A DNA stretch of 64,000 nucleotides from Pseudomonadota bacterium (GTDB lineage: Bacteria; Pseudomonadota; Gammaproteobacteria; Xanthomonadales; Rhodanobacteraceae), in the NCBI GenBank assembly GCA_021794575.1, contig JAJYQO010000093.1, forward strand, positions 1-64,000. Reading direction: 5' to 3'. This document shows, one piece after another, positions 54,150 to 57,520 of this stretch. Every line of letters starts with the position of its first letter. The stretch's first letter is position 1. A program made the translations under genes and the position numbers. The notes beneath the pieces are model-generated. The model made no database searches. It worked only from the letters and a program-made list of their open reading frames with translations, and had not been told where the DNA came from.

Positions 54150-55731
<1,582 letters not shown>

Positions 55732-55745
55732 GAGGAGCGCCCGCC

Positions 55746-56180
55746 ATGATGACCAATCCCACCGGCCGCCTGACGCAAGGCCAGTTCAGCTTCCTGCCCG
55801 ACCTGACCGATGCCGAGATCAATCTGCAGATCGAGTACGGCCTGCGCCGCGGCTATGCCTGGAGCGTCGAGTACACCGACGATCCGCATCCGCGCAACAC
55901 GTTCTGGGAGATGTTCGGTATGCCCATGTTCGATCTGCGCGATGCCGCCGGCGTGATGCTGGAACTGCGCAACTGCCGCCAGACGTTTCCGCATCACTAC
56001 ATCCGCCTGGTGGCTTTCGATTCCACGCGTGGCATCGAGTCGATCACCATGAGCTTCATCGTCAACCGTCCGCCCAGCGAGCCGGGCTTCGGCCTGCAGC
56101 GCCAGGAAGGTCCGGGGCGCACGCTGCGCTACACGTTGACGCCTTACGCCACCGCCAGGCCCGAGGGCGAGCGCTACTAG
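55746..56180 (+). CDS. cbbS: RuBisCO small subunit, red-type
   Basis: The 144-residue small subunit of the L8S8 holoenzyme. QFSFLPDLTDAEINLQIEYGLRRGYAWSVEYTDDPHPRNTFWEMFG is characteristic. The C-terminal extension after FIVNRP is the hairpin that fills the central channel in red-type enzymes and replaces the green-type beta-A/B loop. It starts 14 bases after the cbbL stop behind GAGGAG. Two adjacent ATGs are possible starts. Confidence 0.97.
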   Translation: MMTNPTGRLTQGQFSFLPDLTDAEINLQIEYGLRRGYAWSVEYTDDPHPRNTFWEMFGMPMFDLRDAAGVMLELRNCRQTFPHHYIRLVAFDSTRGIESITMSFIVNRPPSEPGFGLQRQEGPGRTLRYTLTPYATARPEGERY

Positions 56181-56271
56181 TCCACTCGGCCCTTGTCATC
56201 GCATCACGCGCACGCCGGCCGCGCGGGCCGGCGTGGGAAACCGCACGCCGCGCTTGCTGGAGGTACGCATC

Positions 56272-56553
56272 GTGGAGCAGTCCAACGTGATCACGCCATC
56301 GATTCTTTCCGCCGACTTCGCGCGGCTGGGCGATGCGATGCGCAGCGTGCCGGCTGCAGGCGCCGACCGGGTGCGTTTCGATGTCATGGGCGAGGCGGAG
56401 GAGGCTGTTGCGGGATGTGTTGGGACCGACAACATCCGCCGCGCCACGGAGGCGGGTGTCGATACGTTCGCGGCTGACGGCACAATCTTCGGCCGCCGCG
56501 ACTACGCACAGGTCGGCACCGCGCTGCACGCTGATCTCATCGGAGACGCCTGA
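56272..56553 (+). pseudogene. cbbE: internally deleted ribulose-phosphate 3-epimerase (rpe/cbbE remnant)
   Basis: A 93-codon ORF. The first part, [18 protein letters not shown]...[12 protein letters not shown], is the N-terminus of Rpe. It then jumps at once to the Rpe C-terminus: [29 protein letters not shown]. Normal Rpe has about 225 residues, so roughly 130 from the barrel middle are missing, still in frame. Of the metal ligands, the IHxD His is replaced (VRFD), and the second His and the VDGG Asp are lost, so it cannot be an ordinary epimerase. A good GGAGG site precedes the GTG, and the stop lies one base before the cbbX ATG, so it may still be translated and couple to cbbX. Confidence 0.85.
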
Positions 56554-56554
56554 G

Positions 56555-57520
56555 ATGGGCGCACCCGATTACTCCATTCCCGGCAGCGTCGCGCCGCGAC
56601 CCGTATCCGAAGCGGTATCCGACGCTGCGCCGCAGCCCGCGGCCGGCGCGGCGCGTACCGTCGCCGCGGTGCTGGCCGAGAGCCAGGTCGAGGCGGTGCT
56701 CGATGAACTCGAACGCGACCTGGTCGGCCTGGCCCCGGTCAAGCAGCGCATCCGCGACATCGCCGCGCTGCTGGTCATCGACAAGTTGCGCATGAACCTC
56801 GGCCTGCAGGCGGAAACGCCCAGCCTGCACATGAGCTTCACCGGCAACCCCGGCACCGGCAAGACCACGGTGGCGCTGCGCATGGCCGAAATCCTGCATC
56901 GCCTGGGCTACGTGCGCAAAGGCCACTTGGTGGCGGTGACGCGCGACGATCTGGTCGGCCAGTACATCGGCCACACCGCGCCCAAGACCAGGGAAGTGCT
57001 GAAGAAAGCCATGGGCGGCGTGCTGTTCATCGACGAGGCGTATTACCTGTACCGGCCCGAGAACGAGCGCGACTACGGCCAGGAAGCCATCGAGATCCTG
57101 TTGCAGGTGATGGAGAACCAGCGCGACGACCTGGTGGTGATCCTGGCCGGCTACAAGGACCGCATGGACACGTTTTTCAAGTCCAACCCCGGCATGAGCA
57201 GCCGCATCGCGCATCACCTGGACTTTCCCGACTACTCGGTGGACGAGCTGCAGCAGATCGCGCAATGCATGTTGCAGCAGCGCCATTACCACTTCGGTGC
57301 CGATGCCGCCGCGGTGTTTCATCAGTATCTCGAACGCCGCATCCGGCAGCCGCATTTCGCCAACGCGCGCAGCGTGCGCAACGCGCTGGATCGCGCGCGC
57401 CTGCGTCAGGCCAGCCGGCTGTTCGCCGAGCGCGAGCGCGAGCTCGGCCAGGACGACCTGACCACGCTGCTGCCGGTGGACCTGCTGGCCAGTCGCGTGT
57501 TCGCCGACACGCAACTCTGA
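56555..57520 (+). CDS. cbbX: red-type RuBisCO activase CbbX
   Basis: A 321-residue AAA+ ATPase that remodels inhibited red-type RuBisCO by pulling the CbbL C-terminus. Walker A is GNPGTGKTT (K103), the pore-loop segment is [18 protein letters not shown], Walker B is [20 protein letters not shown], and sensor residues lie in [14 protein letters not shown] and [12 protein letters not shown]. The N-terminus has about 30 extra Ala/Pro-rich residues. It starts one base after the rpe remnant, with GGAG inside that ORF. Confidence 0.96.

Follow-up and report, generated by a model that had tools for sequence, protein, structure and literature searches.

A truncated epimerase gene between cbbS and cbbX: a probable pseudogene scar with a repeat-element stub at its junction

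Introduction

What does a short open reading frame (ORF) mean when it carries a ribosome-binding site and ends just before the gene of the RuBisCO activase, cbbX? The question is raised by an interval of the stretch of DNA analysed here, whose 64,000 nucleotides we call the window (G000:C9:1-64000) and which belongs to a genome of 2.49 Mb in 100 contigs (G000). A first-pass annotation had recognised in this interval the two ends of a ribulose-phosphate 3-epimerase (Rpe) fused in one frame, and had left two options: a deletion scar that persists thanks to the translational coupling it gives to cbbX, or a small protein that has taken on a new role where RuBisCO and CbbX meet. The comparisons described below indicate that this mini-ORF is, in all probability, a tolerated and neutrally evolving pseudogene scar of a redundant, operon-borne epimerase gene, cbbE, which would have arisen by way of a dispersed element (hereafter E) and a deletion.

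The locus and the anatomy of the remnant

The features of the locus are collected in Table 1. Downstream of cbbX, Pfam searches identify fbp and prk, followed by ORFs whose translations we take to be those of transketolase-, phosphatase- and aldolase-like proteins, so that the locus can be regarded as a Calvin-cycle operon. The cbbX gene, which begins with an ATG at 56555, is 96% identical in a second species, G008. When the segment 52600-60400 is compared with the corresponding G008 locus (L033), the divergence is strongly mosaic, with about 75-100% identity per 200-bp step and 100% at 56800-57200, which suggests homologous recombination inside the cbb operon.

Table 1. Features of the cbbS-cbbX interval and its surroundings, and copies of element E at an accB-like gene (positions are those of the window unless another contig is named).
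Feature	Position	Strand	Evidence or remark
cbbL, form I RuBisCO large subunit	54253..55731	+	Pfam RuBisCO_large, 426 bits
cbbS, RuBisCO small subunit	55746..56180	+	Pfam RuBisCO_small, 125 bits
GGAGG ribosome-binding site, inherited from intact cbbE	56259..56263	+	context CTGGAGGTACGCATCGTG identical in the G011 full-length cbbE and the G008 mini-ORF
cbbE remnant ORF (mini-Rpe), 93 codons	56272..56553	+	GTG start; apparently neutrally evolving
5' segment, first 39 codons of cbbE from a truncated copy, with the metal-ligand His replaced by Arg	56272..56388	+	alignment with cbbE of G011, G012, G175, G195 and G216
Left-end stub (~12 residues, ~40-51) of E, a dispersed element of ~100 bp with two hairpins	56389..56422	+	matches E in the G008 copy; G011 junction
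3' segment (residues ~52-93), the final ~43 codons of the complete cbbE	56423..56550	+	tblastn to cbbE residues 182-228; alignment
GGAG, likely cbbX ribosome-binding site within the 3' end of the remnant	56542..56545	+	sequence; G011 and G012 have GGGAGAG in this position ahead of cbbX
cbbX, RuBisCO activase (AAA)	56555..57520	+	Pfam AAA and AAA_lid_6 matches
E at accB-like gene	G000:C49:41195-41293 (L104); G008 L099, G004 L090, G005 L103, G011 L105

The frame announced by the first-pass annotation is indeed there, with its GGAGG and with a stop one base ahead of the cbbX ATG. Its start is most plausibly the GTG that stands behind this GGAGG, as no Shine-Dalgarno (SD) sequence is visible before the upstream in-frame GTG at 56233, which had been chosen initially. 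In G012, the context CTGGAGGTACGCATCGTG of the cbbE ribosome-binding site differs by one base.

Descent from Rpe is established by sequence: residues 7-40 of the mini-ORF match the Pfam family Ribul_P_3_epim (PF00834) with 34.4 bits, for a curated cut-off of 21.1, in a match that covers profile positions 2-35 only, and the C-terminus aligns with the last ~43-47 residues of full-length cbbE. Both ends are therefore Rpe, as had been proposed, but the fusion is not a direct one, since about 12 residues at the junction correspond to the stub of E. In the G008 mini-ORF, the same junction matches E positions 1-31 with 90% identity over 31 bp (E=2.7e-5 genome-wide). The loss is also larger than the ~130 residues first estimated, with ~145 of the 229 Rpe residues absent from the product.

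The metal ligands and catalytic residues of Rpe are two His and two Asp, in the order His, Asp, His, Asp. With respect to five full-length cbbE proteins, the first ligand His, that of the stretch WVHFDVMD, is replaced by Arg in the mini-ORF; the second His and the second Asp fall in the deleted part, and the Asp of FDVM is the sole ligand left. The 93-aa product also falls short of the complete TIM barrel of ~220 aa, and it cannot be an epimerase.

An active enzyme was expected to be encoded elsewhere, and an intact rpe is found on contig C52 of the same genome, with a 231-aa frame, a score of 287.7 bits and all ligand motifs present. Apart from this gene and the remnant, G000 has no PF00834 match, and a profile search of the genome found no second cbbE. 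The presence of this housekeeping rpe on another contig would explain why the remnant is tolerated. As a separate observation, in a genome of another family (G059, L037:2524-2849) part of the rpe start is duplicated (103 bp, 87% identical) 223 bp upstream of the intact rpe.

Gain and loss of cbbE among relatives

In several relatives, the same interval holds the complete gene or recognisable pieces of it. Full-length cbbE lies between cbbS and cbbX in G011, G012, G175, G195 and G216. In G011, which belongs to the same genus, cbbS is followed by two 5' cbbE fragments in succession, then by the intact cbbE (229 aa) and by cbbX; the first fragment is interrupted by E after ~20 codons, and in the second E begins after codon 39, so that its switch from Rpe to E coincides, to the base, with that of the remnant in the window. 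The truncated frames of this G011 array (L034:2964-3400) stay open through E, and their TGA overlaps the GTG of the next copy (GTGA), a geometry which could serve translational coupling. G012, also of the same genus, presents two short 5' cbbE fragments with an N gap between them and one visible E, and then the intact cbbE, while in G175 and in G195/G216, which represent two other genera of the family, intact cbbE is present with no E fragments.

The mini-ORF itself has an ortholog of 92 codons and the same three-part structure in the second species, G008, at a locus that corresponds to the public MAG contig JAKAWV010000024.1. A search for further mini-ORFs in the genome and viral collections, with strict degenerate patterns that distant cases may escape, returned G008 only, and none in viral contigs. 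Furthermore, G197, sister to G195/G216, carries at L050 an in-frame cbbE remnant of 41 codons (12 N-terminal and 29 C-terminal residues), which comes from a different deletion and ends one base before cbbX; judging by its relatives, this deletion would have had GCCGA microhomology at both ends.

Nothing is found between cbbS and cbbX in G002 and G003, and cbbE was not detected between them in any of the 30 order- and class-level loci with both genes visible, a sample in which cbbX stands behind cbbS, usually within some 200 bp. In a tree of CbbS, CbbX and Fbp, the cbbE carriers belong to one clade (99% support), which also holds G002 and G003. On the simplest reading of this history, cbbE would have been gained once, then internally deleted on two separate occasions and lost entirely on one, so that the gene would have been lost at least twice and probably three times. 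Alternatively, G002 and G003 could have acquired a cbbE-less operon.

Selection and openness of the frame

The mini-ORFs of G000 and G008 diverge by ~7%, with a 3-bp indel as the sole length difference and the frame intact in both. Fifteen of their 20 changes are nonsynonymous and five synonymous, giving a dN/dS of 1.10, whereas between the same two genomes the neighbouring genes are strongly constrained (cbbL 0.09, cbbS 0.24, cbbX 0.22, fbp 0.17, prk 0.11). Such a proportion of nonsynonymous changes has P=0.0008 under the omega of cbbX (0.22) and P=0.55 under an omega of 1; an omega of 0.5 is weakly disfavoured (P=0.09), in a comparison that rests on two sequences and 20 differences. Moreover, the replacements fall on residues that are conserved among full-length enzymes. 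The mini-ORF appears to be under no detectable purifying selection and to be drifting neutrally, a weak constraint being compatible with these figures. Two marks of a pseudogene, a functional copy elsewhere and a dN/dS near 1, are found together at this locus.

That the frame was "still open" had been considered worthy of attention. A random substitution creates a stop in the mini-ORF with a probability of 0.013, which leaves P ~0.77 of no stop after 20 changes, and of all single-frame stretches of 282 bp in the window, 41% contain no stop. In such GC-rich DNA the open frame carries little information, as it is not beyond what chance provides.

Proposed origin of the remnant

Taken together, these layers of evidence allow a succession of events to be proposed. 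As comparison shows, an ancestor of the clade had a full-length cbbE between cbbS and cbbX. The ~100-bp E would then have come to follow the first 39 codons of a 5'-terminal cbbE fragment, ahead of a complete copy of the gene, an arrangement that is displayed by G011 and that we infer for the ancestor of G000 and G008. Subsequently, as the junction suggests, a deletion would have extended from within E to the 3' portion of the complete copy, so that 31-34 bp of E came to link the 5' fragment to the final ~43 codons, in frame by chance. The product, deprived of the TIM barrel and of all but one metal ligand, would since have drifted neutrally. The 3' end of cbbE was probably spared by the deletions because the ribosome-binding site of cbbX sits there. 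Given the mosaic divergence of the operon, the scar shared by G000 and G008 could also have moved by recombination.

A plain internal deletion affecting one cbbE copy was considered as well and set aside, as the junction includes part of E and corresponds to the way in which fragment and E are arranged in G011.

The option of a deletion scar, one of the two initially advanced, is in this way strengthened by the full-length gene and the intermediates of relatives and by a dN/dS of about 1. Its supposed reason, the coupling to cbbX, has to be weighed separately. The peptide could be dispensable and its translation nevertheless kept, if ribosomes that load at the strong ribosome-binding site of cbbE traverse the remnant and so couple translation to cbbX, in which case in-frame deletions would be favoured over frameshifting ones. 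The SD, the start and the one-base spacing are kept in both G000 and G008, whose sole indel is of 3 bp, and the independent deletion of G197 also leaves an in-frame ORF one base before cbbX; two independent in-frame remnants are suggestive of translational coupling. However, this identical geometry is simply inherited: it matches, or nearly so, that of the intact cbbE of G011 and G012, so that no new function is needed to account for it. The frame would survive 20 random changes with the high probability given above, and two in-frame deletions are expected by chance in 1/9 of cases. Besides, cbbX has its own GGAG, and coupling through the frame is not required in G002, in G003 or in the 30 scorable order- and class-level loci without detected cbbE. 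We consider this explanation, in which the scar would be tolerated by reason of coupling, to be unlikely but possible; the geometry is inherited, and many relatives have no cbbE.

It is far less probable still that the 93-aa product works as a small protein in some new capacity, for instance by binding RuBisCO or CbbX. An open frame with a ribosome-binding site inside a RuBisCO operon, common to two species, would invite such a reading, but its dN/dS of about 1 contrasts with the constraint on the neighbours, only two of the genomes examined carry it, 12 of its residues stem from a repeat element, and its replacements affect positions conserved in the full-length enzymes. Finally, an assembly artefact, in which a full-length cbbE would have been collapsed across the repeat element, as the fragmentation of the genomes (100 contigs in G000 and about 40 in G008) and the repeat arrays present here in relatives might lead one to fear, has a negligible probability, since the independently assembled G008 excludes it with the same junction at ~7% divergence and with a 3-bp indel, and G000 has no second cbbE.

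The dispersed element at the junction

The element whose stub marks the pseudogene scar is about 100 bp long and folds into two strong hairpins (z = -5.3). It is present in 11 of the 13 genomes of the genus, with 1-13 matches per genome, and weaker matches exist in a few other genera. In 29 of 38 distinct copies, counted by hand, the left end of E is preceded at 0-1 bp by a directly duplicated stretch of at least 26 bp, whose second copy stands behind the element, as against 0 of 300 random window sites; the length of these duplications is variable (26-141 bp). A direct duplication ending at the element boundary, as expected of a mobile element with long target duplications, is in this way found for E.

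According to the translations, many copies of E interrupt a gene within its first ~10-40 codons, and an intact gene start follows. From their N-terminal sequences, these genes are presumably accB, hisF, pgk, ubiG, a 3-hydroxyisobutyrate-dehydrogenase-like gene and cbbE. In the accB-like gene, E stands at codon ~28, at a near-identical site in five species, and a duplication of 72-90 bp restores the gene start; the identity of the two duplicates is 98.6-100% inside a genome and only 83-96% across genomes, which indicates concerted evolution. In the hisF-like gene (G000:C65:47413-47512, L116), E lies ~13 codons after the start, and this gene start recurs beyond it in a repeat of 36 bp with 86% identity. 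Arrays of 2-4 tandem units that combine E with a copy of the neighbouring gene end are seen at L083 (G006:C24), L082 (G004:C30), L084 (G001:C173) and L034 (the cbbE of G011); the four-copy array of G006 is located at the apparent 3' end of a tRNA.

No terminal inverted repeats were seen by eye in the consensus of E, no large ORF lies between the element ends in the partial copies viewed, those split or truncated by alignment, which showed no autonomous partner either, and no partner transposase was found. One match to Y1_Tnp, the REP-type transposase family, is present on another contig (G000:C68:1582-1908). An Rfam search on four E-carrying loci gave no match, and searches of the open-licence literature on cbbE pseudogenes and on elements with gene-restoring duplications yielded no account of the present case.

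Tentatively, and with more doubt than confidence, E could be seen as an undescribed mobile element that inserts near gene ends, with duplications of 26-141 bp which keep the downstream gene whole and leave a truncated copy ahead of it; the two copies would evolve in concert, the unit of E plus a gene start would be amplified into arrays, these would seed deletions, of which the remnant would be one scar, and the accB leader of five species would perhaps have been kept as a regulator. If true, E would constitute an unusual route to leader sequences and to the seeding of gene deletions, a proposal that can be tested in public sequence data.

Comparison with known systems

The remnant is ordinary in itself, and E is more curious than the ORF. 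The case is a caution that open small ORFs bearing a ribosome-binding site in GC-rich operons need not be new proteins, and it lets a RuBisCO operon be seen gaining, and then repeatedly losing, a redundant epimerase. With respect to Rpe/CbbE (PF00834), the first 39 and the last ~43 codons of the remnant derive from that family, whereas two metal ligands and their barrel strands are absent and a third ligand, a His, has become Arg. The in-frame deletion pseudogenes of operon genes that have a paralogue are alike in redundancy, internal deletion, relaxed selection and a kept frame; the junction of the remnant differs from a plain deletion in holding a stub of a repeat element.

Rickettsia palindromic elements are short dispersed palindromic repeats, some of which lie inside genes, and REP/BIME are likewise short, dispersed and palindromic (PMC3733652 for REPs). 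Long target duplications of variable length, 8-514 bp, have been described for IS1634/IS1549 (PMC2266710). E shares with these insertion sequences the long and variable flanking direct duplications (26-141 bp); unlike them, it is a noncoding sequence of ~100 bp that lacks obvious terminal inverted repeats, and no transposase was found as its partner. In turn, E resembles REP/BIME and the Rickettsia elements in being short, dispersed and palindromic, with some copies inside genes, and it is set apart from both by its long gene-restoring duplications and its low copy number of 1-13 per genome.
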